From assembly GCA_963922205.1 (NCBI GenBank), contig CAWUHX010000394.1, forward strand, positions 124,001 to 188,000: a stretch of DNA of 64,000 bases, written 5' to 3'. Below, in pieces: positions 33,001 through 63,779 of the stretch (within the stretch, counting starts at the first letter, position 1; each line of letters begins with the position of its first letter). The notes under the pieces are model-generated. The model had not been told where the DNA came from, did no database searches, and saw only the letters and a list, made by a program, of their open reading frames with translations. A program made the translations under genes and the position numbers. Source of the DNA: Romanomermis culicivorax (Eukaryota > Nematoda > Enoplea > Mermithida > Mermithidae).

Positions 33001-36000
33001 GAATCTTGAGTGACATGAGCCGGTCCAACACCTGGATGACTTTGATGATGCTATCTCTGAGCCTTTCACTGACTACTATGCCGATGCCCCTTTGTTTTGC
33101 TCATTCACCATTGTAGAATAACTTGAAACCTTCGCCGATTTCTTTGGCTTTGGCACCCTTCTATTTCATCTCCATGTGATATCGATGCAGTGAGTCTTGA
33201 GGGTGCCACACAGCTTGAAGCTCCGTCTGGTCATTGTGCCGATGTTGATTATGCCAACTCGCAGTTGGACTAGCTTCTTTAGCTCGCCTCATCCAATGGC
33301 GGGTAGTCCTCGCTCATTTCTCACATCGTTTGGGTGAGGATGGCGTGCCTCGCCTCCAGGGGACGTCCTAGCCCTATGACCAAAATTTTGATTTGACATG
33401 TCATAAGATGTGACTGAAAATAGTCCAACCGGTGCATTGCTCCATCTGTCTTTGGATCCCTCCTTCTTTTTCAGCCCCGCTTGGGACCGTCCCTGGCGGA
33501 GTTAAATACAACGTGAAAAAGTCGGATAGATTTTGTGAAGCCGAAGGGCTACAGTTTCGACGTGATACAAAAATTTGAATGGATTCATAAGAATGGTGTA
33601 ATCTCGAGTAATCACACCCTGATGACAAAGCTTTTTGGAAAGAATTTTGAACATGGAAAAAATCATGAAACTACCACATACGCGAAAGTTACAGTAAGCA
33701 CAATGAATCAAAGGTTATTCGAATGTGTGCCCGGGCCGGTTTCATCAAAGAGACTTGAGCTCCAGCTGAGCTGCAGCTTAACTTTCCCGATATGTTTTGT
33801 GCGTATGAGTTAAGCTACAGCTGAGTCACAGCTCAACGGCAATGGTATAACATATAGAGTTACAGCTTAAGCAGCAGCTCAGCTGGAGCTTAAGTCTTTT
33901 TGGTGATACCGGCCCCCGCTCTACTTTCTCTATTCCTCGATTTTCAAGGTTTGATTTCATCGGCTGGCCGCCGTTAAATCGTTATTTGTTCCTGGGCGAT
34001 TACGTCGATCGCGGCGATTACAGTATCGAAACGGCCACTTTATTAATCGCTCTGAAAGTCCTCTTCCCCGACCGTCTATTTTTATTACGCGGTAACCACG
34101 AAACGGCAGTCACCAATAAAACCTACGGTTTCTACGACGAGTGAGGAAAAACATTTTCGTTTTCGTTTTTGAAACACCCTGTTTCAATGTTCCATATCAA
34201 CAGATGCTATAATAGAGGACCACCAGATCAAGGGATTTATTTGTACAAAAGATTCAATCATACATTTTCTTGTATGCCGATCGCGGCCCTGGTAAGTCTT
34301 TATAATGTTGTGGATAAAATTTTAGCCTAATTTGCATAAAATTCATGCATTTAAGGTGGCCAATCAATTGTTCTGCATGCACGGCGGTAAGATTCAGTAT
34401 ATACGGTCTGTATGCTCAAAGTTGGAATAAAAAAATCATACATGTCATTTTTACTCAAGATTTTTGACTCAAAAAATTGTCGAAGGTCATATGGGTAAGA
34501 TCATAAATTTCAGTCCTATGTGGCATATGATTTAGTAAAAAATCTGGAATGGTAGTTACATTGCACGTTTCATTATTTGGGAGCATTTGAAAGAAAGAGA
34601 TTATAGAATCATATTCTAGATTTGTCGCCATAGTGATAGCTCTGACATGATAAAATTCCGAACTGTAAGGAGTTATTTTCTTGAGCCCTTTCTGATACCA
34701 GGACACCTGAGCTCAAAATTGCAAAAGTAGATTTAAAACTGGAACTCTTGTTAAGGCTCATGAGTAATTCTTGATATCTTTATGGATGATATTCAGTGTA
34801 ACATTATTTGCATAAATTTTATTCGCGATTCTTCGTCAAAAATTCCTTTGTCTTGCATTGATCAGGGTATTGGTGAATGGAAAAGTTGGAAAATTACGAA
34901 AAATAACGCCAGAGTGAACTTTAAGCCCAATTCAGCAGTAAAAAATCCTATGATTTTTATCGCCGGCGGTTGCCGATAGCCGCCGATTTCTCGGGAATTC
35001 CGTTGGTGACTGTTCCCGAGTTTACCAATTCAGAAAAGAAAAAATACATATCTTCATATTTTGTCGACGACAATGAGCAACAGTCGGCGACTGTCGCCGA
35101 TTTTAGTCCTAGGAATCGGGGATGAAATTCTGGAAAAGAACACTACTCTCTTTTTTAGGACTGTCGCCGATTTTTTACATGCTAAGCATAGTAAGAAAAA
35201 GTTGTTCGAGGCATCATAAGGTTATTTTTAGCTTTGCCTAAACAATATTAAACCTAAAAAAACACCCATTGTGCATATTTATATTATCCACATGTGTGGG
35301 AAGAAAATTTTGTTTGGTTATTTTCAGGTGCAGCCTTACCTTGTTTTCTCTTAGGGAAATGTCTATACTCGTTTTCCCCAAATGTTACCATGTTTCTTGA
35401 TCGTGTTCTTATTCCCTGAACATTCATTTCCCTCGAATGTCCCGTTTCCCCCAAAGCCCCTATTCCCCGAAGGACCCGATTCCCTGAATGATGAATAAAC
35501 TTCCCATTTCTCCGAACAATGCCTTAGTCCCTATTACCCGAACGTCCCGATTCCCCGAACACTGGATAAAATAATATTCTCGATTCTCCGAATGATTAAT
35601 AAAATTTTATAAATCCACGGCTGTCGCCGATTGATGCCGATTAGATCCTAGGAATCGGCGACAGTCGATGTTTCACTTCTGAATAGGGCACTACATTGAA
35701 AAAGCGAGTTGTACATAATTTCTGGAAAATTTTTAACATCGGCAAAAAAATTTTAAGCTTCAAGGTCGTTTTATTTGTCTGAAAAATTCTCAACCTGCTT
35801 ACTAACGCCATAGCTGGAAAAACCGATCAATTTCTTAAATAAGTGTGTAAAATTTGACTTTTTAGGCTTATCTCCACAATTGAAAAGTTTCGATCAAATA
35901 AGACGAATTCGACGGCCCGTTAACGTTACCGATTTCGGATTATTTTGCGACCTTTGTTGGTCCGACCCGTGCGCGACCATGCAACAGGACGAAGCTTACG

Positions 36001-37966: not shown

Positions 37967-39110
37967 TACACCGATTATTTGGGCAGCAGTGACAATAAGA
38001 ATATGGACATATTTTCGACAACGATAATTTATGAACTAACGCTGATGAAATATTACGCAATATTTTTACTGAAAGAGTAAACCAATATAAAGTATAGTTT
38101 GAACCATTTTTCTCGTTATTGAAGACGGTGCCGACTTCCATGTTCTCTTGATGGATTCCACTCGCTTGCTGTTTCAAAACTCCTAGCGACCTTCTTGCCA
38201 TTTCCAAAAAAAATCTATTCAAATTATCGTTTGTTTATCGCGTTCATGAGCAGGTAGAGAATGGCCTTAGAACATCCGGAAGAGTCTGAAATTGCGATTA
38301 TTTTCCGAAATTACCGCATTTTGGGTAAGAAACAAGCATTTTTGACGTTTTCGTGAGAATATCGAATATTTTTTTAATGAAAAACCAACATCGGATTCCC
38401 CGCGCAAAATAACCCTTCCCCCCTCTGCCATTGCCGTAAAAATCAAGGGGCCCACTGCCACAGCAAGCCGTGAACTCAGAAATCCACTTTGGAGGCGGAG
38501 CAACGCCTTTGATTGGCTAGTTTCAGAAATTTTTATCCTCTTATGTGCCGTCCATCTTGATTTTTTTTCAAGATTATTTTGAAGAAAATGCGATGTACTT
38601 GAAAAAATTGCGATGCACTTCGGAAAGAAATTTGATTATCGAAAAATTCTTACATCTTGTTTTTTTCTGCGATGCATCTTGCAATTTTTGAGATGCATCT
38701 TGAAAAAATGTTGGGCATGTTCGAAGGTAACAATTTTTTCATGTAGCAACAAGTTTTTTCAAGTGGCCACACTCAAATTAAATTGATTTTGTGTGAACGA
38801 TTCCGATGAGATTGATTTTTGTTATTTTTTTATTTAGAAGCAGACTCTAGCTATGATACTGCGTGTAAAAAACCCAGGACTTTCAAAAAATACACAAGTA
38901 TGCGAGTAAATTGAAAAATATCAACTGTACCTAATGTTATGTCCTCATACTTTGGTCTTATCATTGCTTTTATAGTCTCACGGCTTGTCTTTGAGTGTAT
39001 GACTTGATAATAGTAAAAAACATAAGCTACCGTCATCAGGTCACATCCGCCGCCTGATTATTCCAGTCTCTTTCACTGTTCAAACACTTCTGTCATTGGA
39101 TCATATCCGC
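37967..39110. other. Flank between PPP gene and foldback element 2
   Basis: Holds the PPP 3' UTR (a weak AATATAAAG around 38085 may serve as poly(A) signal) and GATGCATCTTG-word repeats at 38570-38710. No gene. Confidence 0.4.
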
Positions 39111-39552
39111 CATCACTACGGTTTCAACCCTATTCAGCGAAACACACAAAAGCGAAACCCAAAATAGCGAGACTCGATACAGCGATTCTCAAAACAGCGA
39201 TGTCTCAAAACAGTGACTCTCGATACAGCGATGTCTCAATACAGCATCCTCAAAGTAGCGATGTCTCAATACGACAATTCTCAATACAGCGATTCTCAAA
39301 ACAGCGAACTCAGAACAGATTCTCAAAATAGCGAATTTTCAAAAAAATTATTTTTGAATAGATTGGAAAAATGGGGATTGGGTGGGGTAGACGTTTTGGC
39401 GCATGGCCTATTTGGTCCTCCATTTCGATTTGGTGGATGCTGGTTGTCACATATTTTGGCACGAATCGCTAGATTTCTCACATTATGGCTCTATATCATG
39501 TGTTTTCATGACATTTCAGCTTTTTATTCTGGTTTCTTTATTATTAACATAT

Positions 39553-39801
39553 CTATAGTCTTTTTTTATAAAATGCTTCCAAATTGAAAAATGACACAAA
39601 TCGGTACTGTCGTCAAAATCGTTAATATAGAGCTCTTGCTTTAAAATTTCTTACTCAAAAAAATGTTAAAGGTTAGCTCAGTATGCTCACAAATTTCCAG
39701 TCTTACATGATATATTGTTTATCAGAAAATCGTGAAAATCTGAAATACTACTTGCTTTCCACTTTCATTATTTGGAAGCATTTCAAGAAAAACAGACTAT
39801 A
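39553..39801 (+). repeat. Family L MITE, ends TATAGTCTGTTTTT
   Basis: Starts CTATAGTCTTTTTTTATAAA and ends TTTCAAGAAAAACAGACTATA, inverted ends of about 25 bp, with TTCCAAATTGAAAAATGACA inside. Nested in foldback element 2. Relatives at 55303-55512, 59531-59775 and 61775-62030. Ends in TA are compatible with a TA duplication (Tc1/mariner-like), but this is inference. Confidence 0.65.
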
Positions 39802-40509
39802 CATGCATGTTTTTTGTTTCTTTTTTCCCTTATTGACTTATTTCCTTTTATTCTCTTCTTATTTGAGCCACTTGTTGTTCTTTTTGTTCAATTTTTTCAG
39901 GTTGTGTACATCTGTTTTATTTTTTACGTTGTACTTTTTATTATATTATTTTATTTTTCGTTTCTTTATTATTTGTTTTTTATTTCGCATTTACTGCTTA
40001 ATTATTTTAATTATTTCATTTTATTTGTTTATTTCATTTTGTTTTACTGATTTCTTTGATTTAATTTTTTCTGCAATTAAGCTCCATATGAAAAAATTTT
40101 AATTTGGAATCCTTATGATAATTTTTTGTTCTTGTTTTCTTGTAAACGTTTTGCAAAAATATTTTTCTGATGTCCGCGTTTACTCCAAAGTGTAACGAAG
40201 AGTGAAATTTTGTAAGATCTCATTTTTCCGACTAATGTAAAAAAAAGATGTTTTTCATTTCTGTACAAATAGGTTTTCTTTTGCTGCAATTTCAGTTACT
40301 TTCGTTAAGTACTTTGTTTTCGTCTTTTTCTATTGTTTAACCGTCATTCCGAGAAACACCAAAAATCTAATAATTACAAAAATATCCAACAATCGGCCTG
40401 TGCACACAGCAGGGCCCTTTTCGATAATCCACATAAAATTATGCAAAAGCCCAAATGTATGCAAAACACGAGCTGTGCATGCTCACATGTGACAATCTAC
40501 AGTAACCGC

Positions 40510-40690
40510 ACAGTATGGCACCTGTGCACTGGGATGGGCGGTCCAAAAGACTGCCCAATTTTGATTGGTTCCACGACTACGTCCATATGGATAGTCAACA
40601 CGAGAATCGAGGAGATTCTCATTCTTATTCTTCGACGACTTTCGGTTCTCACGCTTACGTTTTGGGAACCATTTTTTCGAGCGTAGGGTC
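40510..40690 (+). other. Possible captured exon fragment, unknown protein
   Basis: An open frame reading DWFHDYVHMDSQHENRGDSH then SYSSTTFGSHAYVLGTIFSS is followed by GTAGGG, a possible donor. Codon choice (TCG, CGA, TCT) resembles that of the real exons here and contrasts with the AT-rich surroundings. It lies inside foldback element 2. I recognise no family. It may be a captured host exon or chance. Confidence 0.25.
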
Positions 40691-41995
40691 GTCCCTACAA
40701 CACTGCAATTGTCGACTTTTCAAGCGCCAGGGAACCTGCCCTACGGCCAACGACAATTGGATCGTCACCCTTTGCTCACCTTTGGGGCTTTTGCATCGCA
40801 TACAGTATACCCGTGTAATCGCCCGCAACTTTTCTTTTGACTATCGGAACGACAGACGTTTTAACTGGAACTTAATTTCGTGTAACTATTCAATTTGTTA
40901 TTTATTTTAAATATTAAAATATCCAAAAGCCCCCCCCCTTTTCGCATTTCAACGTCACATCGGCGTGACAAAAGGCTCACTGTCACTTATCGCGCGAATC
41001 TATCCTCGCTTCGCGCGAGCGAAGGTAGCGAGTATAGAATCTAGCGATGGCGCGATATCACCAGCGGCACGTTAGCTTACTGCGGCAATTTTAATTTTTT
41101 TAGAAATAGTAATTTTTCACCAGTTCAAAGTGGTTTTGTTTTCGATTCATATTATACTTTCAAATTATTGGAAAAAGCCTAAATAATATTTATTATATAG
41201 CACACAACGAACTATAAAAACGAAAAATTGGTTGAATTTTCGATATTCCCTACACCAAAATTTTTCAAGAGTTGATACTCCGACGTCAAAGATGTCAAGG
41301 AAAAAAAGTTTTTCAGAAATTAGGGTAATTAAAACAACACGGATGATGAAAAGAACAAAATAAAATTGAGATTTTCAAAAATCCTAAATTTTAAGAGAAT
41401 TTTCAAACAAAATCAGTCGGGCAGATGCAGACCAGCAATAAATTTGATTAAAATCTCCAAATAAACATTAATATTACAGAAAACGGGGATGAAAATGGAC
41501 AGAAATTAAAAATTTGACCTTCTTCGCTCGAAGGGATATCGCTAGTTTAGAAAATTTTCTATCCTCGCGATGAGCGAAACGCGATACAGTAAACTTATCT
41601 TTCCATCGCGCATAGAACTTTTTGCTGTATCGAGATTCGCTCTTTGTTTTGAGAATCGCTGTATTGAGACTTAGCTATTTTAAGTGTCGCTGTATTGGCG
41701 ACACGCCATTACTACCACGGAACTATTGCAACATCACACAATAGGCTACATATGTTATGATAAAAATAACATGCTTTCATGATTCTTGAAAATCCTGATA
41801 AGAGATCAAATAAATGCAGTAAGAGAATATATACGACAAAGCGCACTACACGAAGAGAGGCGCAGAGCTATTCCGAATGTGTGAATTTCTTTTATCGGGA
41901 ATACAACAAATAATTCACAAAAGAAAATTCAGTCACAAATAATAACAGAATCGTTTCAAATAACCAAAAAACTAAACGCGAAATTGAAAAAATAA

Positions 41996-43577
41996 CTAAA
42001 ATTCTAGCTTCAATTTTAAAAATTCTTTCAACGAATCGATATTCCATCCTTCGATATTAACGGATTGTTCGACTTGACCGTCGTCGTTTAGAAAATTCAA
42101 TTTGGGCAACGCGCCGGGTTTATGAACGTGTTCCAAACCCGACCAAATTTTAAAATCTTTCGAATTGATGAAATCTATTAAATTAAAGGGAAATAAAATT
42201 ATTTACAATTGAATAAAAAAATAAACGTCTATGAAAAATGAATCGAATTATACACAAAATAATAAAACAAATAAATTAATTAGCTGAAAATTGAAGTTTT
42301 TTAAAAAGGGTGGAGAAGGTTCATGGAATTTTATATCAAGATACTCACCGGTGATATGAGGAAACATTCCGAATTTACAACGACACATAACTAGTTGTGC
42401 ACGATTGTATTTCTAAAAAAACAATTTGCATTATTAATCCAACAGTCCATTTAGAATACAAATTAAGAAACTGACGAACTTTTAAAAAATATTTTATCGA
42501 CTCGATGAGTGAAGTTTAGAATATTTATCCTACGAGAAGAAAGAAGATTTCCAAAAATTTTGATTGACACTAAGCTTTTTCTATCTCAACCTTCTCACAC
42601 GCATGATCTAACACATATTTGATTTTTCATAATTAAATAGCAGTAAAAGATTTTAATAGCTTCATATGTAATTTCAATATTTTTGTTATAGGAAAATATG
42701 ATAATTCAATTAAGAACAACGAGTTTTAGGAAAATATTATTGCACATAATGAATGAACCGCGTACATATCCTATTTCTCAAGCTTTTAAATTGTTTACAA
42801 TGATAAAATATAAACACTATAAACAGTCTATAAAACATTTCAGAATAGAAAAATATGATAAAGTTTCCGATTTTCTAATTTTGGTTTAAAAAACATACTT
42901 GTTTAAGTTTAATCACTCAGTAATTTGATTTGATTTACTAGACAACTGCAGTTTCCAAACGCGAATAGAAATTTTTGGGTAATTGCGATACTAATTAAGA
43001 TAGTTTCCAACAGTTTTCCCAAATAAAATCCCCGTTTTCCAGGTCATTTTCCAAAAATTTTCAGACCAGAAACAGGCAGTAATTGATACGTATAAAATGG
43101 TAAATGATTTGTTCATCAGAAGCTGTGATATAGACGTTATAAAGCACATAAGATAATAAAAAATATTATCAAATCGATTTTAAAATATTTTAAACTCATT
43201 TCCAGCTGAGCGATTTATAGGCTCAACAAATTTTTTTCCGACTTTAAATAATTTAATTCCAACCGCCGTATTTTTTCTGTCTCGGTAACAGCTCATTTTC
43301 CGTTAAGGAACTCACTGTTTTTAAAGTTTCTTTGTTCAGAATCACTCTTTTTTCCACATTTTTTAAGAATGATAATTCTTAGTTCATAAACATTACTTAA
43401 TCTTACCTTTTCTTCTTGACTAGCGGGAGTTGAACAACATTTTTCGCAGGTGGATTTTAAAGCGTCCAATTTCCATCGATATAATTCTTGGCAACCGTCG
43501 CACGTTAAGGCGGGCGTGAATCCGTGAGGTCGACAGGCGTCTTCGTCGAAAATGAAGTCGGCGAAAAGTGTACAAAT
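41996..43577 (-). CDS. SELENOF: SELENOF (Sep15), cysteine form, 5' exon missing
   Basis: SELENOF is an ER-lumen thioredoxin-like oxidoreductase that binds UGGT and acts in glycoprotein quality control. Three minus-strand exons join in phase: 43577-43407, 42412-42349 and 41996-42174. The first has DEDACRPHGFTPALTCDGC and KSTCEKCCS, the Cys-rich UGGT-binding region. The second has QLVMCRCKFGMFPHITG, the redox site of vertebrate CGU(Sec)K type. The third has LNFLNDDGQVEQSVNIEGW and ends KLEF-stop. The Sec position is TGT (Cys), so the site is C-R-C, and neither UGA recoding nor a SECIS is required. The signal-peptide exon upstream of 43577 was not found; introns are 173 bp and about 1 kb. Confidence 0.92.
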
Positions 43578-44940
43578 CTAAATAAGCAAAATACGCACTG
43601 CATGCAAAAGCTTGTATTCACAAAATTTTTTTGCCTTTCTGAATGTAGAAAAAGACGTGTGGAATGAGCATTATTACTAATAATTTAGTCATTCATCATT
43701 AAGCAGTAGACAAAACTTGGAAGGTACTCAGCCTGGCCACTCGCCAGGGAAGATATAACTGACAAGAGAAATCTACCAGAATGCTAAAATTGAAAAAAAA
43801 CAAAAACAAAAAATTAAGGTTCAAATATTAAAAAAGATATTTCTGACTGATCTCGACAAGATCTATTCACTGTTGCCTACCGTTGTTACGTTTTTGAAGA
43901 CAAATAATCTAATCGCCTGAAATAAAGTACGTTCTCGCTCAAACTTCTCAAACTGAAAAACTCAAAAAAACTAAATTTTGAAAGGCGAGTTTTCGCTAGC
44001 CCTGGAAAAAGAATACGGTTGTAGGAAACTAGAAATCATAGTACGCATAAGGCTACAAAACTTTTACGGTTTCACTAAAATAAATATTTTTCATTTGGAG
44101 AATAGAGGACAGAAATCCGCAAGGTCAGGTATTCAGATAGGGATAGAGTTAAAAATTCGCGGAAGTAGTGTAGCTAAATGTCCACTAAACACGCTATTTT
44201 TCCGGAGGTTAGGCAATCACTCACTGAGCAATTTTTCGAACTGGGGGTAGCAGCAATATTCTCCTCATACTCCTCCCTGTGGGGCAGTCTGATGGAGGAC
44301 AATATTTTCATCTAATGCATTCAGTTTTTCCTCGAATGAGGTCTTTGAAGATTTTAGTTTTATTCGATCAAGATCTCAAAATTTTCTGGCGCTCAGTGCC
44401 GGGTCATCCTTATAACAGTCATTATTTTTCAACAGGAACAGCCGTTACCATGTCCCCCTGACTTATCAATTACCTTACAACATTTTTATCGACTGAAGTA
44501 TGTCATGTCTTTGTTTAATCGTTAATCTTTGGCATTTTGTTAGAATTTTAACGTGGGCTTTTCTCCATGAAGTTTTCCGTTGCTCGAAGTTTTCCAAACG
44601 TTGTAAACGTAAATTTTATTTAGAAAACGATAAAAACATCGTTCTAGACTAAAAATTTAAAGCTTCTATTTAGGGAATAATTACTAAGAATTAGGGAAGA
44701 ATTGTTAAGAAGATTCATTCCCCAACATTTTAGATTATAAAAATTCGAAACGTTTTCCGGTGCAAAATTAAATCTGCAATTCGAATCACAGAAATGTCAG
44801 CAGCAGTTAAATTCCTTGGAAGTCAATCGCTATTATGCTTTTCATCGTTGTATAATCTCTATTTTGTCGTCTGTTAGCACTGTCTGACTTAATTTCTAAC
44901 TAAATTTTTTGTCTTTTCCTCATTTTAATGAAATACTGAT
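43578..44940. other. Region upstream of SELENOF exon 2; one repeat, no exon identified
   Basis: The missing SELENOF 5' exon should lie here or further right. The only assignable piece is a family D copy at 44108-44295. A GGCGCTCAGTGCCGGG hairpin word follows at about 44385. Confidence 0.4.
44108..44295 (+). repeat. Family D dispersed repeat, copy 3
   Basis: Shares AAGGTCAGGTATTCAG, GTGTAGCTAAATGTCCACTA and CCTGTGGGGCAGTCTGATGG with copies at about 15.0 and 17.5 kb. Confidence 0.65.
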
Positions 44941-44957
44941 TTCTGGAACGTCAGAAT

Positions 44958-45217
44958 CATACATGCACATAGGGGGTAGGGGGGGTAAACCCCCATACCT
45001 GAGACCCTGGCCACCCGCTCCTGACCAAAAAAAATCGTCAAACACCCCCCCTGAACCTTTTCCAAGACAAGTTTTTTGATGATTCTTATGCATATTGTGT
45101 ATGAAAAACAGGCTTGCAAAACTTTTTTTTTGTTTTTTTGCTCACCCACCCCCCATACCCCCTTGGAAAAAAGTCCATGGACCCTCACCCCTGGAAAATT
45201 CTTGCTGTGCATGTCTG
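44958..45217 (+). repeat. MITE family A, copy 3, perfect 8-bp duplication
   Basis: Starts CATACATGCACATAGGGGG and ends TTGCTGTGCATGTCTG, an inverted pair. It is flanked by GTCAGAAT on both sides (44950-44957 and 45218-45225). This is the best-preserved family A copy and supports hAT-type integration. Confidence 0.8.
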
Positions 45218-45939
45218 GTCAGAATGCTTTAATAACAATGATTAATTAAGTCGAAAATAATATGTCGTAAATATAAAGAATAAATATACGTGAAAGGCGT
45301 AACATCTAAAGAAATTAGCGAATTAAGTTACACCTCTAAGAAAGGTATCAAATTTACTCTTGAAGGATATCAGAAAAGTTTGAGTAAACTTCCGAAATGC
45401 ATAAAGCATTTGCAGCCACTATATGAGCGTTTTTTAAAGACAAGAAAAAATTCAAAGTTTGGTCGTCATTGTTCCTTTCCCCAAATCGGGTTATTTTAAG
45501 GAAAAAATTCGGAAATGTGGAGAAAATTTTAGGTACGGTATGGTTCACATGTGCGAAAACAAAGTTTATTCGCACACAGCAACCGAATTTCATAATCCTT
45601 TTTGACGTTTTGTTATGATTAGAAAATTACTGGCTCCAGATATATTAGAATGTTCAATCAAGCTCAAAAACATAAATAAAGCATCTCTCGAAATTTTTGA
45701 ACGGAAAAACAACTAACGCCAAAATAGGGGAAATATGGTTTAAATCTTTCGCCGAATGGCGAAAAAATTACGGTCATCAATTTTTGCAGAAGAATAAGCT
45801 GGAATAAATACATTTTTCGACGTTTTAGAAGCCGTTTTTTTGTTTAAATTAAGCGACGTTGTTAATTTTAGAGCCAACAACAAAAAATTTCCCTGTGCAA
45901 CCAAATTTTCCCCATGTTGTACATTGCAACGTGGTCTGT

Positions 45940-46100
45940 GCAGAAAACCCCGGGCTGAGAAGCTATCTAGCCGTGTTATCTAAACAGCCACGCGGCTATC
46001 TAGCCAAGAAAAGTACATTTTGACTCAGTGCGGCAATCTAGCAACCGGCCAAAAAACTCTGTGCGGAAATATTCAAAGAAAAAAGGTGTATGGTGTATAA
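45940..46100. repeat. Word-rich stretch, GGCTATCTAGCC
   Basis: Several GCTATCTAGCC-type palindromic words with AGCAACCGGCC at irregular spacing, in the style of the foldback arms but too short to define an element. Confidence 0.35.
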
Positions 46101-47533
46101 AAGTTTGAGCATAACGCCGGGCTAAACTATTTTATAGATGCACTAAAATCAGTATTTTTCAGTTCTTGCATGAAAATCTGAGCATTTGGAGGATGACATT
46201 AAAACACATTTTCATCTGCAGTCGGTTCCAAGAAAGTGTCTCTCGCGCGAAAATTTGCTATGTCTCTCGATTTTTGCTCTGTTTTGGCTCTACGAGAGAC
46301 AAAAGACGGAAATTGGATTCCACGAAATTGTCTCTGACAGAGAGATGCTCTAAGAACTGGCTCTCTTGGAGAGCGGCTCTGTGAAATGGCTCTACAAGAG
46401 ACAGTTTAGAGCCAAATAGGTTCCACGAACCAAAAAAAGTTCTCACGCGAGCAAGAGCAGAGCCATAAGTTGCAAGCTTGCTAGGATCGCGAAAGTCGCG
46501 AAAGAGAGGAGCATAGCTCCTCTCTTTCGCGATTTTTTCCCCGTACGGCAGAAAATTTTTTTTTTATTTAGCATTGTAGATTCAAAAATTGACATTTTTG
46601 TTCAAAATGGAGCGCCGAAGACACAGTAAAACGACATTTTTTACGGAAGGGGTCATCGATTGCCAGAAATTACCTCAGGAACGGAGACAATAAAGAAAAT
46701 AAATCGATTTTTTTGGACTAAAAAGTTCACAAATCACCTCAAAAAGTAGTTTTCATCTACAAAAACCATGAAAAAACGACGACCCAAAAAATTGACGTTT
46801 TGACCTTTTTTGCTTGAGAAAACACGATTTTTCAACACACAACTTTACCATTTTCGACAGTTTTTTCCCGAATTACCTGCCAAACAATTGCCATTTTAGT
46901 TGATTTTTTTCTTCAAAAATTAACATTTTTACCAAGAAATTGATCTTTTTAATCGCATTGTGAGAGCTCCGGACCGTTGAGTAAACGATCAAAGCCATTT
47001 TTAGAGGGATGGAGTTGACAACTTTCTGAAGTCAAGAGGAGGGGGTCACGCAGTGCTCAAAAATTCGTTTTTTTGACCAAAAAATGGACAAATCATGCCC
47101 TTGATCAATTAATTTTTACTCTAAAAATAATACTGAACATCATTTCGGCGTTAAGCGCCGGAAAAAAATTTCTCCAAGAAAGATGTATTTTTGGTCGATT
47201 TCCGGCCTGTCAACAGCTGGAAGTTGGGGGAGAGAGTCGTCGACAACTGCATATACGATTTAAAATTTTGGGGGACATTTTTGACCATTTTTGTAGAGAA
47301 ATAACTATTAAGTGCCAGAAAAATAACTTTTCTGACCTTCTCGTTCAGAAACCATCATTCTCGACCGGAAATCTGACATTTTTGAAAGTTTTATGTTCGA
47401 GAAAGGACCACATTCTACTAAAAAGCTGACATTATCGATTGTTATTTATACGAAAATTTATATTTTGCATAGGAAAATTGATGTTTTCTAGGTTTTTTTG
47501 TTCAAAAACATACCGGTAATTGGAGGGAGTTAG

Positions 47534-48911
47534 TAGGGATGGGCCGGATCGACTTTTTTGGCGACAGCGGATCCGGATCTTGAGGAACAGATCCGACCGG
47601 ATCCGGATCGGATCTTTCAATAAGTATATGTACTATGTCTAATTTGTCTAAAATTGAGTTGTATGAATTTATATTCATTGGTGTCAATAGATTAATAGAT
47701 TATAAATGATTGAAATGTTCGTTTATTGAAATAGTTAACATGTACTAATTAGTAATTTTCATTCATTAAATTGTATTCATGCTTAGATTAATATTGGTTT
47801 CATCAGAAAATAAATGAATAGAAATGGATACTTTTTTCAGAAATTATGGATTCAAGTTCTTCTTTCACTAGCAGAGTGTGGGACTACTTCACAGTGTCCC
47901 CAGATGATGAAGAAAAGGCAAAGTGCAATAAATGCAGAATCCAGTTATCCAGAAAAGGTTGTGCTACTGGATGTCAGAGAAAACATTTGGAGAGGAAACA
48001 TATGGCAATTGCGGCTAAATCAAAAGAAGATAATGAAAATATAAGTAATTGTGGAACGAATTGCTACTAGTATAGTCATGTTAGAAAATTAATTTTTGTG
48101 TTTTCTTTAAAGATAGCCAGAAAACTGAACCTAGCAACTCAAAAACCAAATTAGAAACTTAAATCTCAAACGTCTCTGGACAATCGCTTCATGCAGAAAG
48201 TAAACTTGAATTAGCACCGGCGAAAAGTGTCCCCTATGGACAGCTAGTCAGTGGTGCTGGTCAAATTTATGACCCTACCAAAAATTGTTTGAAGGGTGGT
48301 ACTGTTGAAAAATTACTGTTTCTCAAGTATAATTTTGCTACCATTGCAGTATTTTTGTATAAGCCTCTTTGTACCTGTACAAAGATCGGCCACAAAGTCT
48401 TTGTACGAAGAAATTTTTTTTGTACACTGAAAAAACCATGATCTTTTATGTATTTTCGAACAAAGTTTCTTCCCAATAGCACTCGAGTTCCCGTCTTACA
48501 AATTAAGAAAATATACTCATAACTTTCATAAATCTGAAAAACTTCAAGTTAAACCTGAAATTTCTGAAAATTAGTTTCATGATGCTTCTCAATTTAAACT
48601 CGGCTTCATGTTTAAAATTAAAATTGCAAAAAAGTTGAAAAAATAGATTTTGACGTTCTGAAATGGGCCAAAATTCGCCTTTTCCATACAGGAGGACCGC
48701 CAACATTTTTTTCTTTACTGGAAATTTTTTCTCCAGAAAGCACGATTTGTAGAAAAATAGTATTGCAAAGAATTATAAAATCCGGCGCGAAGCGCCGGAA
48801 AATTTTTGGTGTTTTCTAATACTGCAAAATTTTATGTGAATAATAATGAATAAAGATCCGATTATGACCGCATCTTAATCATTGACAACAGCGGATCCCG
48901 ATCCATCTCTA
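47534..48911 (+). mobile_element. hAT element with BED zinc finger, perfect 8-bp duplication
   Basis: Ends TAGGGATGGGCCGGATCGAC and, from the right, TAGAGATGGATCGGGATCCG, the TAGGGATG-type ends known from hAT elements. Flanked by GGAGTTAG at 47526-47533 and 48912-48919. The BED exon lies near the left end. The catalytic domain is absent, so this is an internally deleted copy; the rest (about 48260-48870) is family H repeat sequence also present at 57220-57880. Confidence 0.85.
47846..48070 (+). pseudogene. BED-type zinc finger exon of a hAT transposase
   Basis: A 74-codon frame reads SRVWDYFTVSPDDEEKAKCN then KCRIQLSRKG and HLERKH, the BED finger pattern (aromatic pair, C-x2-C, H-x4-H). After a possible intron, about 48170-48215 reads QTSLDNRFMQK, the short linker that usually follows BED fingers in hAT proteins. 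No RNase-H fold follows, so the gene is broken. Confidence 0.8.
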
Positions 48912-48929
48912 GGAGTTAGTCATCCCCAA

Positions 48930-49130
48930 CTTGGTCAAACCTATACCCAACACCCCGCCCCAAACTCGGAAAAATTGAGAAAAAAGTGATTCTTTTGGTA
49001 TTTTTTGGGAAAATTTTCGAACTTTTTTTTTACTTTTTTCGACCCCCCTTCAATTTTGAAAATTTCGGAACGCCACCCCAAAATTTGGGTTTACCCTCTC
49101 CCCCAACTGGTCGGACCTCTTACAGGTATG
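48930..49130 (+). repeat. Family K dispersed repeat
   Basis: CAACTTGGTCAAACCTATACC start and CCCCCAACTGGTCGGACCTC end, same order as the other family K copies. Confidence 0.6.
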
Positions 49131-49149
49131 TTCAAAAAAGGCCATTTTT

Positions 49150-49605
49150 TCACCGAAATTAAAGTTTCCGACCGTTTTTTGTTCCGAAACAGAATTTTGT
49201 GCAGAAATTTCTTGACGGTTTTTCGGAAATTACCAGTTCCTGCCAAAAAATGATAATTTTGACCGTTTTTCTGGTTCAATAATGTCCCTATTCCACGAGA
49301 AATTTTCACTTTTAACCAAACCTGAATGTTTCCTAGCAAAGATTGACAATTGTCATCATTTTTTGTTCGAAAGTCACGATTTTCTAGCAAAAGTTGATAT
49401 TTTCAACTGTTTTTCGTTCCAAAATCATTATATTCCAGTAGAAAATTTCACATTTTTGACCGTTTTCTATTCAAAAATGAGCATGGTCTACTAAAATCAA
49501 AATTTTTTAACCGTTTTTTGTTAAAAACTCACCGTTTTCAACTAAAAGTTAAAATTTTTCAGCATTTTCTGCTCTAAAATCAATATTTTCCATCGAAAAA
49601 TTAAA
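49150..49605 (+). repeat. Minisatellite, ~58-bp units
   Basis: About eight diverged units of the form GACATTTTTGACCGTTTTTT, then GTTCAAAAATCA, then a TTTTCTAGCAAAA block. Related units occur at 46690-47510 and, singly, inside family C repeats. Confidence 0.65.
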
Positions 49606-49953
49606 CCACTTATTTTATAAATATAGCCGTATAGAAAATTAGCATAAACACAGAAACGCACGCAAAAATTGTTTTAAATGAAGAGGAGAGATAAAAACTT
49701 TATCAGGGAAGCGCTAAAGTGTCAAAATTGACGTAAATTTTTATCACAGCGCTGTCTCTCTTTTTGCTCTAATCGTGCTCTCTTTTTGGCTCTCGTGAGC
49801 AAGCTCGCGAGCACATTTGTGGAACGGATTTCCATAGCCAACTCAGAGCCGTCTCTCGAGAGACTATCTCAGCAGAGCCAAAAAACTGGCTCTGTCTCTG
49901 CTCTAAACTAGCTCTCGGAGAGCAATATTCATGGAACCGGCTGCTGATGTATT

Positions 49954-51257
49954 CAGTGTTTTTTTTGCACCGTGCAAAACTTTTTTTTCAGGTTTTTTGC
50001 ACCGTGCAAAAAAATATCAAATGTGAAAAAAATTTGGTGTTTTCATATAGAAAAGATGCATTTTGGTGCATTTTAGTAGGTCCAAATCTCAAAATTTTTC
50101 GGCGCTTCGCGCCGGGTATAAATTTAATATCATTATTATTTATTGTCAAGCTCAGGCGCGGCTTTTAGCATGTCTAACTTCACTTATCACTAATTTTTCA
50201 TAGTTTTCATCGTCTTGAACGTATTATTTCATGTCTAATTGGCAATCTCCAATATATCATTATATTTGATGAAGATCTCCATTTTTCCTCCATACGTTTT
50301 TGGAGAAAGATCAACACATCAATTTGGTGCATTTTAGAAGGTCATAATGTCGAAATTTTCCGGCGCAACTTTAATATCATTATTATGTGTTACATAGCTC
50401 AGACGCGGCTTTCATAATGTGTACCTCCACATATCATTTAAGGTATAATAGTTTTCATCATCCCAAACGTATTATCTCATGTTTTAAACAGTAATCTTCA
50501 ATATTATCTTGATATTTAATGAAGATTCACAGTTTTTCCTTGTAACATTTTTTGAGAAAGATCAATACGTCAAGTCTCTAAACTTTTAGAAGCGATTATT
50601 CCTTTCTTAACGTAAAATCAATTCAGAAGCTTCATGGAAGTAGTTTTCGGAAATTCCTACACTTCCACTCATATCATTTCGGCCAAGTTCATGAGAGTCG
50701 ACGAATAAATTACTGGTTTTAAAATTTTTCAAATAATAAAATTCTAAAAATTACGACTTTTAAACACAAAATTTGAATCTAATTCGTGAAATAAATGTTT
50801 GGAAAATTGATTTTGCTGCGTCGGCGAATGTCAATAGACGAAAAATTTTTCTATCTTTTTTGGGGCTTTTACTTGTCATCATAGAGGACTTAACCATCGA
50901 TTTATCATCTAATGCAAATTCATTATGCTACTAGACAGTTTTATATAAAATTTGTTTCACAACAATGCTTGTAAATTAGACTTGAAACTCGAAAATTTCA
51001 ATTTTTTGCTAAATTTTAATGTTTGAAGTTATAAGTAAAATTTGAAAATTACGCTGATTTGGTTTAGTCTTTCGCCATGGCGTAGAATAACACAGGATAC
51101 TTATTTATTACAAATGAAATATTGGCTGCTGTTTGTACATGTGCAAATGAGTCATGTACAAAAAAACCTGTTTATAGTACAAAAAAAATTTTGGTGTGCA
51201 AAACTTTTCTGGTGATTTTTTTGCACTGTGCAAAACAGCTCGTGCAAAAAAACACTA
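49954..51257 (+). mobile_element. hAT-like element, word GCAC/GTGC, 8-bp duplication
   Basis: Starts CAGTGTTTTTTTTGCACCGT and ends GTGCAAAAAAACACTA. Flanks GATGTATT (49946-49953) and GATGCATT (51258-51265) agree at 7 of 8. Subterminal words TTGCACCGTGCAAAA lie at both ends. The body is shared with 25378-26566, including CGGCGCTTCGCGCCGG and CTCAGGCGCGGCTTTTA; a roughly 300-bp stretch of it is duplicated in tandem (about 50030-50340 and 50325-50600). Confidence 0.75.
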
Positions 51258-51694
51258 GATGCATTCCATGAACACGTCCATCGAATTTGACATTGGAATA
51301 TTATCCTTAAAATAGTAAACTAATGGTTTTTTTCGCAGAGACCTTTTTGCCATTTAACGAGCGGTCAAAATTTTCGTCGTTTTTGGCAATTATTTTTTTT
51401 CGCTCGAAAATACTCACAAGTTACACAAGCGTCATTTAACGCTTTTTTGAGTTGATTGGAACATTCTCATGCGTTTTCAGTTATTAATTTGCTAATAATG
51501 AAATTTTTGATCCTCTAAATTGAACAAAAAATGCACCTTTCCGTATTAGATGAATATTTTTTCCCGCAATTCGGCGACATACCTGTAATTGTGGGGGTGG
51601 AGGATTGGGGAGGCTGACCTCTGCGCAGCTTGGTTGAACCCTACAACTAAATTTTGAGACCCCAACTCGAAGAAAGTAGTTTTTTCTGGCTTTT

Positions 51695-51985
51695 TTGGGC
51701 ATACCTGTAAGAGGGCCGACCAGTTGGGGGGAGAGTAAACCCAAAATTTTGGGGTAGGGGTCCCAAAATTTCTAAAATTTTGGGGAGGGGAGTCGAAAAA
51801 CGCCCATAAAAAGTCCAAAAATTCTCGAAAATTGTCACCAAAAAAGCCATTTTTTTCCTGATTTTTTCCAATTTTTCAGAGTTTGGGGAGGTTGGGTTGG
51901 GGGTGGGGGTCCCAACATTTTGGTATAGGGTTCGACCAAGTTGGGGGTGGGGGTCCCCCCAACCTCCCCCAATTACAGGTATGTG
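51695..51985 (-). repeat. Family K dispersed repeat, inverted copy
   Basis: The reverse complement contains CCCAAAATTTTGGGTTTACT and CCAACTGGTCGGCCCTCTTAC. The left and right edges both carry ACATACCTGTAA-type words. G-runs are expanded. Confidence 0.6.
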
Positions 51986-52209
51986 TATGTTTACTTTCCA
52001 GGTTTTTTCGCCAAAAACACCGATTTGGCGAAAAAACAGTACAATAAGTAAATCAACAGAAAATCGAAGTTATTACAATAAAATTTGAAACTTCTCGAAA
52101 CTTACATAAATTTGCAGCACAACCAAGCTATTGGGTATGAAGGACATTTTTAGCGATACCAAAATTGATGTGGGGGCGCCCGCCTAAAGCCGAGAATTTG
52201 ATATTCAAC

Positions 52210-53056
52210 CAGCGTTTTTTTTTTTGTGCACGGACATTTGTGCCAATTGGCACAAGAGGCCAAAAAAATTTGTGCCAATGGCACAAAAAATTTTTTTTTC
52301 ACTAGAGATATACTGAAAACTGCGGAAAAGTTTTAGGCCAAAAGTTTGATAAAAATTTATTGTTTAACGCATTAATTTTTTGTAAAAATCGTGCCCAACC
52401 TATTTTTCAGCTGACCATGTCAGTGAGAAGAGAAAAAACTGTGCAACAAAATAGTTCACGAAATTCCAAAAAGAAATGGAATGCTGAGACAATTTAAATA
52501 GCTCTAGAACTGTTCAGGAAGTTCAAATTGATTCAATTTTCGACTACGAACGAATATCTATGTTATGTATATTTAACAACCATGTAAAGACTAGAGAAAA
52601 TAAAGTCGAAAATCGCGTTAATTTTCGATCGAAACATTTTGCTATTATCAACGACATCGATTTTTCTGTTTGAATCAATCAAACACAAAAAGTATAACAA
52701 TTTCAGTTTTAAATCCGAATCTGACCGAATGAAGAGAGAATATTCAGAATTTCTTTTCACTCATCAGTCATGACAGCCGATAAAGTTTGCTGCAACGATA
52801 CTAATACACTGTTGGAAGGGAAATCGTTCGCGTTCGGGTCCGATATACGAATAGAAAATATTATATTCGTTAACTCGGCGCGAAGCGCCGAAAATTTTTT
52901 GCATTTTCAGCCCCTAAAACGTCTAAAAATCAAGGAAATTTAATTTTTGACCAGCCAAAATTTTTGTGCCAATTGGCACAAACGCTCGAAAATTTTTGTG
53001 CCATTCCAAATTTTTTTGTGCCAAAAACCATGTTTTGGCACAAAAAAAAAACACTG
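52210..53056 (+). mobile_element. hAT-like element, word GTGCC/GGCAC, perfect 8-bp duplication
   Basis: Starts CAGCGTTTTTTTTTTTTGTG and ends GGCACAAAAAAAAAACACTG. Flanked by TATTCAAC at 52202-52209 and 53057-53064. Words TGTGCCAATTGGCACA occur at both ends. The body matches 24576-25366, including GGCGCGAAGCGCCGAAAATT. Non-autonomous. Confidence 0.8.
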
Positions 53057-53402
53057 TATTCAACACAGAAAATTTTCGCAACACAGTAAAATCATTAAAA
53101 CTATGTAAATGGACTACCTTGATAAATGATTACGTGTAGAAAACTCACACAAGAAATAATCCGTCAACTATTCACCTGATTTCAGTCTGTTCGTGAGAAT
53201 TATTTATCCTTTCCTGCGGTCCCGTCTAGCACCATGCCGTTTCGGCTCCGGCCAATGCGGCGCTGGCCATTTCGGCTCCTGACATATGCAAAAACATATG
53301 CAAAAATACAACAAAAAAATTTCATATGCAAAAACAAAGTAATGAAAAATCAGAATTACTTTCCCGGTCGCTTTTTGAGGCTATAGTAATTGTGTGAAAG
53401 AA

Positions 53403-54917
53403 ATGTGTCTCGCTACAGCGAGCGTTCCACAATAGCCACCATCTCACTTTAGCCACCAAAGTGTGTATAGGCATTCCACTATAATCACCAGTCAAACAAC
53501 ATGTGAATATCCCACTAAAGCTACTGTCTCACCATACATGCACAGCATAGAAATTCTGCAGGGGGTCAACCAAGACAGGGGGTGGGATACAAAATTTTTT
53601 TTTCATTCTTGATAACGGAAAGAAAGGTCTTCTAACATCCAAGCAGCATATTCTTCAGCCTATAATAGTCACTGCACTTTTTAAAGTTTTAATGTTACTT
53701 TTTTGGAATCAAGTATGCTTTGTTTAGAAAAAATGGTTAAAAAACAGTATTATTCCCATTTTTATGACGACTTTTTCTTCTCTCTTGATCATTTTCCTTC
53801 GTCATCTTCTCAATCATTGTTGGGGGAGTCGAATCTGCTGGGGGTCGGCAAGGATCTGCTGGGGGTCAAAACTCCCCAAACCTCCCCACGTGCATGTATG
53901 TGTCTCACTGTGGCCGAGATTGCCCGGAAAACAAATAAAAGAGCACACAAAGGCACCACAATATTTGATCGAAATAAACTATGTTGGAGTAGCTTCTTTT
54001 ATTATCATACGTTTAATGAAGCAGCAAACGCTGATCTATGAAATTCCTGCGGAATCTTATTTTTTATTTCGGAAAAGTCTCAGAAGAGGTTAAACAATGA
54101 TACAGTTGGTCAATATTTCAAGCATCTTGGATATAAAAATTAAGAAATTGAAGCTCCAGACGCACGTGTTAGGCTAACAAGGTATTATCATGACGGATCC
54201 AAATCAAGGGCATGCAAATAAATGTTCTCCAATGGGTAAATTGAAATTGAAACCATCAAATTGGACCGTGCAACCCTCGAAAAATGTAGAACCCAAGGAA
54301 CAAGACCATTAGCGGCTTACCGAGAAATGATAAACGGAATTCCATGACAAGTACAACGGGAGGCAAGATTAGACACTTATTGTAAATGAAATGCAACGTA
54401 ATGATGAAATTCGAGGATCATTATATCGGTGTGCTTCAAAACAGCTTTTCCTAACCCAAAAAAAAACACGGCAACTCTATAGCTTGTTATGCTAATGCAA
54501 ATCTCAGAGGTAAAACATTAATGGGATCTAACTAAAAGATCCTAAATATGCTAATGACCCAAGATATCTTACTGTTGACCACGACATAGCAGTAGCCAAA
54601 AGAGAATTTCGTTAAAATCATTAGTATAAGGCACGTATGGCATTTTTTGAACGGCCTTATGGTTCTGTTTCATTCTGGAGACAATTGGAGACTTCCTTCA
54701 AAAGTTGGCCGAATGCCTACCGGATTGTTTGCCCATCCATAATCCATTGTATGACATATAAACACCCGTAAAATCGTTGATGGCTGTTGCGAGACAGTGG
54801 CTGAAGTGAATCAGTCACTAAGTGACAGTTGGCTATTGTGCGACGTCTATTGATAGTTTGATGGCTGTACTGAAGATAGTGGCTGTTGTTGAACGATGGC
54901 TGTAGTGATACGGGCCG
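53403..54917. mobile_element. Foldback-like element 3, arm word TAGCCACC, 11-bp flanking duplication
   Basis: The left arm starts GTGTCTCGCTACAGCGAGCG then TTCCACAATAGCCACCATC. The right arm (54757-54917), read inward, gives TATCACTACAGCCATCGTTC then AACAACAGCCACT, a clear inverted match. GTGTGAAAGAA flanks both sides (53392-53402 and 54918-54928), so a 9-11 bp target duplication. A family I MITE is inserted in the left arm with its own 8-bp duplication. The interior (53.9-54.7 kb) has no intact ORF. Confidence 0.7.
53533..53900 (+). repeat. MITE family I, copy 1, perfect 8-bp duplication
   Basis: Starts CATACATGCACAGCATAG and ends CACGTGCATGTATG. Flanked by TGTCTCAC at 53525-53532 and 53901-53908, which are part of the foldback 3 arm, so this insertion is younger than that arm. 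Contains CTGCTGGGGGTC repeats. Confidence 0.85.
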
Positions 54918-55302
54918 GTGTGAAAGAATATGTAATGACAGAATAAAATGCACTACTAACAAGAGAAAGAAGAAACAGTGGCAGGAAAAGAGTTGCAAAA
55001 ATAAAAAATTGTTTCAGAAAAGGAAAAAGATGCTTTTTTACTGAAAATATCGAAAGTGATGCTACAAAAAACTAATGCATAAGATGCAACAAATAAAAAA
55101 TAGCTAATAGTATTTTTCCTTGGAATTCTTCCAAATAATTAGAATGGGAAGCTAGTATTGTTTCAGACTTTAAAGATTTTTAACTACACTGTATGTCACA
55201 TAGCGCCAAACACCTGCGAGCATTCTCAACTAATCTTTAGCTATTTTTTTAATAAAAAATTTCATAGTCAAAAATTTGTGAAAACGGTTTTAACGACAGT
55301 GC

Positions 55303-62030: not shown

Positions 62031-62232
62031 TTTTACGTCCTGTAGTTTATGTCAAATATGCTAGTTTCCGCCAGCGAATCTTGCTGACACAAAAATTTGA
62101 GTGAATGTGGTGAACACAGTGAAAAATTCTATAAGTACAACCGGGAGGTTACTAATTTTAGGAAGCCAATGTAGCTAACAGTAAAATTGTAATAGGCATC
62201 AGATGTACCATTGGATTGAAAATGTAACTGAA

Positions 62233-63727
62233 GGTACCGAAATAATAGAGCTCGGACATTAGAGCGCAAAGACATTAGAGCGCAGGACAATAGAGCGCAG
62301 GGACATAAGAGCGCAGGACAATAAAGCGCAGGGACATAAGAGCGCAGGATAATAGAGCGCAGGGACATTAGAGCGCAGGACAATAGAGCGCAGGGACATT
62401 AGAGCGCAGGACGATAGAGCACGGGACAATAGAGCGCAGAGACATAAGAGCGCAATACAATAAAGCGCAGGGACATAAGAGCGCAGGACAAATTAGCGCA
62501 GCGACATTAGAGCGCAGGATAATAGAGTGCAAGGACATTAGAGCGCAGGATGATAGAGCGCAAGGACATTAGAGCGCAGGACAATAGAGCGCAGGGACAT
62601 TAGAGCGCAGGACGATAGAGCACGGGACAATAGAGCGCAGGGACAATAGAGCGCAAGGACAATAGAGCGCAGGACAACAGAGCGCGGACATTAGAGCGCG
62701 GACATTAGGCGCAGGACAATAGAGCGAAGGGAGAACAGAGCGCGGACATTAGAGACAATACAGTAGCGGTTGCAGGGGCGGGGCGGCCGCGCCTCCTAAA
62801 GTCATGGTATAAAAATTAAAATTATCAAGATAATGGTTAAACGCAAACTATCAGAAATCTACAAAACTTAATTAAATACTGTAGCCAAAATCAACTTTTT
62901 TCGAATTTTTTCTTCATTCATCTATCCTCTATTTTCTTGCCGGTTGTCCCATTGTTTCGTCTTTTTTTCGTTTTGTCTTATTTAGAAAAAATTTCAAGAA
63001 AAGAAAGAAAAAATCGTCTGCATATCGAAGCAAATAATTCAACAAAAATATAAAAATTGTAAATAAAAAATTTCCGCCCCTCCCCCGAAAAAAATTTTTC
63101 GTCGGCCATTGAGACAATAGAGCGCAGGACAATAACGGATGGGCGCAATAGAGCGCAGGACGATAGAGCATGGATAGTAGTGCACAGAAAAATTAGATCA
63201 GAGAAAAATAAAAAAACGAAAATAAAATAATCGAAAATAACTACATTTCAGCCCAAAAATGCTTTCTTTAATTTTTTCGTGTCTCTGAAGAAGTTCAGGT
63301 CAAAGCCAAAACGTTTTTACACCATGGAATACTTTGTCAAAAGTTGCGAAAAAAATTGTAGATATTTGACCTTTGAACCTTCGAATAACATTGTTTCATT
63401 TTGTTATTTTCGAATTCATCTTCAATTTCTAACCCGCATGCAGAATCACACACGTAATTTTTTGCCAGCCTTTGAAATAAAGCTACTTGCTCAGTATTCT
63501 TTTTTCATGTTCAAAAGCAATTTAAAATTCGCGTTCATTGCAGATCACGGAAAGTTGGTTAAAATTTTTTCAAACCAATAGATGCGCCCTATTGTCCCTG
63601 CGCTCTATTGTCCTTGCGCTCTATTGCCCTGCGCCCTAATGTCCGCGCTCTAGTGTCCTGCGCTCTAATGTCCCTGCGCTCTATTGTCGTGCGCTCTAAT
63701 GTCCCTGCGCTCTAATATCCGGTCAGG
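62233..63727. mobile_element. Foldback-like element 4, arm word GAGCGCAGGACATTA, perfect 9-bp duplication
   Basis: The left arm (about 62260-62760) is a tandem array of about 30 units of 15-16 bp (GAGCGCAGGACAATA and GAGCGCAGGGACATTA). The right arm (about 63583-63715) is the same word on the other strand (TGTCCCTGCGCTCTAA). A few units lie at 63108-63180. Outer ends GGTACCGAAATAATAGAGC and, from the right, CCTGACCGGATATTAGAGC pair imperfectly. GTAACTGAA flanks both sides (62224-62232 and 63728-63736). The interior has a short GC-rich patch (GGGGCGGGGCGGCCGCG) but no recognisable gene. Confidence 0.8.
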
Positions 63728-63779
63728 GTAACTGAAATTTATTGATGTCGAATCAATAATATTTATGCCTACCGTTAGT

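Follow-up and report, generated by a model that had tools for sequence, protein, structure and literature searches.

Foldback elements with differing tandem-word arms in Romanomermis culicivorax as probable non-autonomous members of several Phantom-type Mutator families

Among foldback transposons, the FB elements of Drosophila have 31-bp units and the TU elements of sea urchin have 15-bp units. Four elements, designated E1, E2, E3, and E5, in a stretch of 64,000 nucleotides from the nematode Romanomermis culicivorax (the window; C394:124001-188000 of the 359-Mb, 595-contig assembly that was searched) resemble FB and TU in having differing middles between long inverted arms that are made of short tandem units. 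Their architecture and the domains found in this genome place them, with high probability, as non-autonomous members of several Phantom-type Mutator/foldback families. The Phantom MULEs were reportedly described by Marquez and Pritham in 2010. As summarized in a 2019 MULE survey, Phantom elements have duplications of 8-10 bp and terminal inverted repeats (TIRs) of 18-613 bp, and mini-satellites have been noted in aphid members (PMC6446971). The published description of Tm1 from root-knot nematodes (Meloidogyne) assigns it to a Mutator/Foldback family of the Phantom subclass with composite TIRs, consisting of a variable number of 13-15-bp tandem units, around differing interiors; its ends are asymmetric 7-bp motifs followed by GGA, duplications of 8-10 bp, mostly 9, flank 45 of 53 elements, and the autonomous element encodes a FLYWCH+MULE transposase (PMC3169594). 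Sea urchin is also named among foldbacks in another report (PMC4079207). In Galileo, a foldback of the P superfamily with a THAP transposase, the transposase binds to sites within the tandem repeats of the long TIR, with differences in binding from one subfamily to another; the same 2013 paper calls a binding-site role of arm repeats untested for Foldback and Phantom elements (PMC3688188). The likeness to Galileo is one of mechanism only, since its transposase is of a different kind.

The elements described here share with Tm1 arms of tandem units, 9-bp duplications, differing interiors, and sequences coding for FLYWCH and MULE domains between arms; in some families, though not in others, asymmetric ends precede GGA (GATTCTA-GGA and CGTGTCC-GGA in a transposase-bearing family, M47, and CGTGACC-GGA in E3). 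The features shared with Phantom MULEs are the MULE domain, a FLYWCH finger in some families, and duplications of 8-10 bp (PMC6446971). The initial annotation of the window knew of no described family with this combination, but Tm1 has it (PMC3169594), and the window elements are assigned to a known kind because the parts of their architecture are those described for Tm1 and Phantom elements. The class is already known; what is worth following is the diversity of the arm words within one genome. In Tm1, a single core word, CGATTCAGTATCCGC, extends across two genomes (PMC3169594), whereas ten differing words are present here in one genome. This Tm1 word (Motif C) has no significant likeness in the six families compared with it (E1, E2, E3, E5, M15, and M18). 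Tm1 also has a purine-rich Motif D. In the literature searched, no account was found of many differing arm words in one genome matched to transposases, which is not proof that none has been published.

Target-site duplications were scored by comparing the 9 bp that adjoin either end on the outer side, allowing 3 bases of slack, in 46 copies from five families (13 of E1, 11 of E3, 13 of E5, 7 of M15, and 2 of M47); the left flank of one copy compared with the right flank of another served as control. The terminal motifs used were derived from the very copies that were scored, and six copies in which an end motif was not located were left out. Duplications agreeing at 8 or more of the 9 positions are present in 23 of the 40 scored copies, as compared with 4 of 338 mismatched flank pairs, and the 9-bp flanking repeats that the initial annotation singled out for scoring are thereby upheld. 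By family, they are present in 4 of 10 copies of E1, 7 of 9 of E3, 4 of 12 of E5 (a count that takes in the window copy, whose ends the scan misplaced), 6 of 7 of M15, and both of M47, with control hits of 0/90, 0/72, 0/132, 4/42, and 0/2, respectively. Two of the four control hits pair L054 with L057, duplicates of a single insertion, and the other two pair L054 and L057 with L052, at 8/9. L054 and L057 are M15 copies 0.3 Mb apart on C90 with flanks and duplication in common, probably one insertion copied with its surroundings; counting them once gives 22 of 39 copies with a duplication. The joined flanks of L057 revealed no empty site and matched just the two loci that bear the insertion. 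Among the six left-out rows, L080 and L111/L112 also agree at 8/9, the right end of L111/L112 being plainly misplaced, and 9-bp duplications were read on both sides of M67 (GCTACAGTA) and M18 (CGAAATAAT).

E1 occupies positions 39120-41706 of the window, on the plus strand as are the other elements, and has no transposase match. Its left arm (39120-39345) begins with the terminal GGTTTCA and continues in tandem 15-bp units of the CAGCGATTCTCAAAA type, and its right arm (41600-41706, minus strand) has the terminal GCGTGTC; the best autocorrelation lags are 15 and 31, respectively. The flanking duplications, CATCACTAC at 39111-39119 and CATTACTAC at 41707-41715, agree at 8 of 9 positions and directly adjoin the family terminal motif in the flank scan. 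The E1 family has two different ends outside the tandem units, GGTTTCACCCC and GCGTGTCCCC, and its genomic copies include at least 55 matches to window positions 39100-39800; this count and those for E3 and E5 below are lower bounds because only 40 candidates were scored for each. C131, a partial relative of the E1 site, runs across the junction with one copy of the duplicated stretch, the match being short beyond the junction and of 80% identity. Inside E1 lies an inverted repeat with AAATGCTTCCAAAT ends (39562-39792), which is overlapped by a repeat (39587-39799) also found in L010-L012, L056, and L084, among others.

E3 (62233-63727) has arms at about 62234-62765 and 63575-63727 that are composed of AGCGCAGGACATTAG-type words with a period of 15-16/31. 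In both arms the best autocorrelation lag is 31, with 16 and 15 next, and Tandem Repeats Finder reports 16.7 31-bp units in the left arm and 4.3 in the right. The duplication GTAACTGAA is identical at all 9 positions on the left (62224-62232) and right (63728-63736) and directly adjoins the family terminal motif in the flank scan; the family ends, again two different ones, are GGTACCGAGACATT and CGTGACCGGACATT, and there are at least 236 genomic matches. In one E3 copy, L099/L100 (C245:347220-347560 and 349000-349280), the two outer flanks read almost exactly as reverse complements of one another, and the element may therefore lie in the middle of either a palindrome or an artefact of assembly. 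Another copy, L109 (C343:250980-251200), has beside its end the same nine letters, GTAACTGAA, as the window E3 duplication, which might reflect chance, target preference, or shared descent.

E5 (29237-30125) has a short left arm, an autocorrelation lag of 15, and the family ends GGTCTATTCCC and GGGTATTCTC, and has at least 134 genomic matches. The flanks of the window copy, CATAAATCA and CATTATATA, read by hand, agree at 6 of 9 positions and show no recognized duplication. The family-specific, asymmetric termini of E1, E3, and E5 stand just outside the tandem arms in copies scattered through the genome; asymmetric ends are also present in M15, M47, and M67. Such asymmetry is as described for Tm1. 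GGA follows at both M47 ends, at a single end each in E3 and M67, and at none in E1, E5, and M15.

E2 (53401-54917), with words of about 17 bp of the AGCC type, lies within another interspersed repeat, whose other copies provide empty sites. The E2 flanks are identical over 11 of 11 bp (GTGTGAAAGAA), but nine empty sites and the loci L010 and L011 set the duplication to the first 9 bp, GTGTGAAAG (53392-53400 and 54918-54926), and we read the last two bases of identity as chance. When the joined flanks were used as a query, 38 of 40 scored matches crossed the junction, the other two being the two halves in the window itself. Each of the nine empty sites fetched holds the duplicated stretch once, mostly as GTGTAAAAG, after which comes AGTATATAAAG, with a short gap beside it in C110; the duplication made by E2 was therefore of about 9 bp. 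The insertion is also present, between similar flanks, in the relatives at L010 and L011, and for this reason the three look like copies of a single insertion together with its surroundings. The duplications of the 9-bp type originally described at three elements are thus confirmed for E1, E2, and E3. The best autocorrelation lags of E2 are 17 in the left arm and 32 in the right; unlike the arrays of E1, E3, and E5, its arms are absent from the Tandem Repeats Finder listing. A high-copy repeat of about 370 bp inside E2 (53533-53900), which the E2 matches to L010 and L011 skip, supplies most of the listed genomic matches of the E2 query.

It might be argued that the arms are minisatellites of the ordinary kind, or fragments of satellites, that lie inverted by chance between chance flanking repeats, as they are indeed tandem arrays with a variable copy number. 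This explanation is extremely improbable in view of the recurrence of terminal motifs together with duplications, the empty sites of E2, and the transposase domains between arms that are described below. An origin from unrelated satellites is rejected by the duplications, empty sites, and transposase domains, and chance flanking repeats by the mismatched-flank control.

A profile search of the contigs for the MULE domain (PF10551), in which 150 of 248 candidates were scored, gave at least 122 matches in the genome at E<=0.001, and 30 loci were fetched. Both arms are present at 15 of these, a single array at seven, no array at one (L044), and the remaining seven form a separate armless group. 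The two arms were within 1.5 kb at nine loci and were found at six more after extension of the flanks (L047, L048, L067, L040, L049, and L068); at L043, L045, L046, L050, L053, L055, and L063 there is an array on one side only in the stretch examined. L044, which has no array in its unextended 1.5-kb flanks, clusters with L049 and has an N-terminal frame that is nearly that of L040. The 23 loci outside the armless group fall into six families, M15 (11 loci), M47 (5), M40 (3), M18 (2), M67 (1), and M68 (1), grouped by arm words and frames, with a clustering that mixed strands as a guide only. In six families of the same genome, therefore, a MULE domain is enclosed by arms of this architecture, and four of them (M15, M40, M47, and M67) have a FLYWCH finger above the Pfam cut-off. 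M40 served as a test noted in advance: its first 1.5-kb flanks contained no array, but both arms were present further out with a CAAT word, CAATCCGTCCCCCA. The composite arms consist of tandem units of about 13-17 bp, with longer units in M18 (18 bp) and M68 (about 20 bp). Array length differs between the two arms and among copies, the arrays of M15 having 4.8-12.1 units on one side and 2.8-14.9 on the other. E1, E2, E3, and E5 are regarded as non-autonomous, on the basis of termini, arms, and duplications, because no transposase or transposase remnant of their own was found. The search suggested earlier for a MULE-bearing copy thus yielded six armed families, but, among the 30 loci, none with the exact words of the window elements.

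The armless group (L058-L062, L064, and L065) comprises two clusters and has very long open frames in several loci; the frame of L059, the one scanned, contains SWIM and ZSWIM1-3 RNase H-like domains.

The arm words, written from the outside inwards and rotated by hand, are CAATACAGCGATTCT in E1, CAATTGAGCGATTCC in E5, CAATAGAGCGCAGGA in E3, CAATAGCCACCATCTCA in E2, CAATTGGGTGAATGA in M15, CAATTGCTCGCAAACA in M47, CAATTCGCCCCCAGA in M67, CAATCCGTCCCCCA in M40, CATTAGCAGCCTACTGCA in M18, and CAAAAGCGCAGTCAATGTT in M68. In local alignments of whole arms, conducted with the 15 pairs of six families (E1, E2, E3, E5, M15, and M18), the scores for the same orientation sum to 265, as compared with 153 for the opposite strand, 155 for reversed, and 133 for complemented arms. 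Five pairs are clearly above all three controls, E1/E5 (45), E3/M15 (38), E5/M15 (31), E1/E2 (26), and E3/E5 (19), and the remaining 10 are no more than 2 points above the controls or do not exceed them. This comparison supersedes one of hand-drawn words, in which E1/E5, E1/E2, E5/E3, and a second E3 word with M18 had p<=0.01 on the same strand and E5/M15 had p 0.010 on the opposite strand. A relatedness of the words is therefore supported for some pairs, as judged from the alignments; the earlier statement that the words are different is not right as it stands, since they are partly related.

The resemblances between families have to be weighed against the alternative that foldback families of independent origin, drawn from several superfamilies, arrived at tandem arms by convergence. 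The window does contain E4, which has inverted ends and belongs to another superfamily, Galileo of the P superfamily also has foldback arms (PMC3688188), and M18 and M68 differ in their words and N termini. The MULE domains of the six M families provide no independent evidence on this point because the families were found by that domain. However, the 9-bp duplications in E1, E3, E5, M15, and M47, the similar termini of E3 and M47, and the same-orientation similarity of the arms argue against convergence, which we consider improbable. It should be recognized that several observations weigh against the preferred assignment to Phantom-type Mutator/foldback families. A search of E1, E2, E3, E5, and the compared copies for transposase remnants gave only other short repeats, and we infer, rather than observe, that MULE proteins move these elements. 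M18 lacks a FLYWCH match and shows just a RYYR-CCHC match below the cut-off, and the N-terminal frame of M68 that was scanned matches no Pfam domain; L045, the sole one-array locus to be extended, has no second arm despite longer flanks; the M18 arms are no more like those of E1, E5, or M15 than the controls are; and duplications were detected in only a minority of the scored copies of E5 and E1.

A common CAAT core among the words is suggested by a CAAT/CAATT block shared by nine consensus words (all except E2), which shuffled words reach in 4 of 400 trials at k=4 and in 0 of 400 at both k=5 and k=6. Flipping the orientation of words gives as good a block in 80 of 256 cases at k=4, 128 of 256 at k=5, and 256 of 256 at k=6, a result that is uninformative or negative for such a core, the former because CAATTG is its own reverse complement. 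In the six M families, the identity of the MULE domains and the similarity of the words have a Spearman correlation of 0.70, which is reached by 10 of 720 permutations of the families, and the closest enzymes, those of M40 and M67 (62% identity), have the closest words. These values are suggestive only of a word likeness that tracks transposase likeness: the correlation depends on six families and mainly on two close pairs, the enzymes of M15 and M40 are 53% identical yet their word similarity is 0, and the words of M15 and M47 are more similar on opposite strands (0.28) than on the same strand (0.14).

A mechanism that would account for these features is that the FLYWCH domain of the transposase recognizes the word of about 15 bp, each arm being an array of putative binding sites that would raise the odds of the enzyme finding the right ends. 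Slippage or unequal exchange would make the arrays longer or shorter, word and transposase would change in concert in each autonomous lineage, and a non-autonomous element would ride on whichever transposase reads its word. We propose tentatively, with somewhat less than even confidence, that at least ten word-families radiated in this genome, six with a transposase and four seen only as non-autonomous elements, and that their words are FLYWCH-binding sites derived from a single ancestral word that had a CAAT core; the variable half of the word would have been rewritten by each transposase lineage, so that arms and enzyme would form matched pairs. With respect to the suggestion that arms are generated by slippage, the variation in array length fits expansion and contraction, but the words do not appear to be all of independent origin.

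A rather unlikely, though appreciable, alternative is that the arrays are a by-product of slippage with no role in recognition, the enzyme reading solely the outermost 7-10 bp. The conservation of the outermost asymmetric motifs within families and the free variation of array length are what this would predict, whereas all six MULE families examined keep their arrays, word likeness appears to follow transposase likeness, and the tandem repeats of the Galileo TIR hold transposase-binding sites (PMC3688188). If the words are instead binding sites that changed together with the enzymes, they would amount to a naturally occurring set of cis/trans recognition codes by which transposon families are isolated from one another, with the non-autonomous elements tracking the code of their driver. 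With different words in the six armed MULE families and FLYWCH fingers in four of them, enzymes can be paired with their own or with foreign words to test this directly, and the rules by which FLYWCH fingers of transposases recognize DNA could emerge. Many minisatellite-like arrays in the genome may also be accounted for as ends of such transposons.

E4 (46219-49943), which had been grouped with E1, E2, E3, and E5, is a different transposon. Its ends are CAGTCGGTTCC and GGAACCGGCTG (CAGYCGGTTCC/GGAACCGGCTG in the family), and it is flanked by CTG duplications at 46216-46218 and 49944-49946 and contains a stretch coding for a BED zinc finger (47849-48067; PF02892, E=2.1e-11). Among the matches scored, its left end is 88-93% alike in at least 39 other places. 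A copy-specific 3-bp CWG duplication is present in 10 of 11 copies, as compared with 42 of 110 mismatched pairs, at an offset that was the best in a scan across lengths and offsets. The best autocorrelation lags are 29 and 22, at 0.36-0.37, and in whole-arm alignments the similarity to arms of the type in E1-E3 and E5 is no better than in controls. E4 belongs to another superfamily because of its ends, its BED finger, its CWG duplication, and the lack of arm similarity, and it was rejected as a fellow member on account of the 3-bp CWG in place of a 9-bp duplication and the unrelated arms. PIF/Harbinger-type elements also have CWG duplications, which is a lead only for the placement of E4. Assignment to hAT, which the BED finger would also fit, was rejected since the 8-bp duplication of hAT was not seen, the best agreement in ten copies being 5 of 8. 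The original count of five elements with inverted arms of tandem words consequently holds for four (words of about 15-17 bp), and, of the two said to have no recognized duplication, E5 remains and E4 has the 3-bp CWG. Likewise, the view that one transposition mechanism acts on diversified ends is consistent with the 9-bp duplications and the armed MULE elements in the genome, but it does not extend to E4.

Elsewhere in the window, the minus strand includes a stretch with a sub-cutoff match to UTP20. A search of the assembly for SL1 RNA yielded no match, nor did the controls. A GC-rich segment at 32230-33100 (0.46-0.47) has a sub-cutoff match to an endonuclease-reverse transcriptase domain (PF14529) and is perhaps the remnant of a non-LTR retrotransposon.

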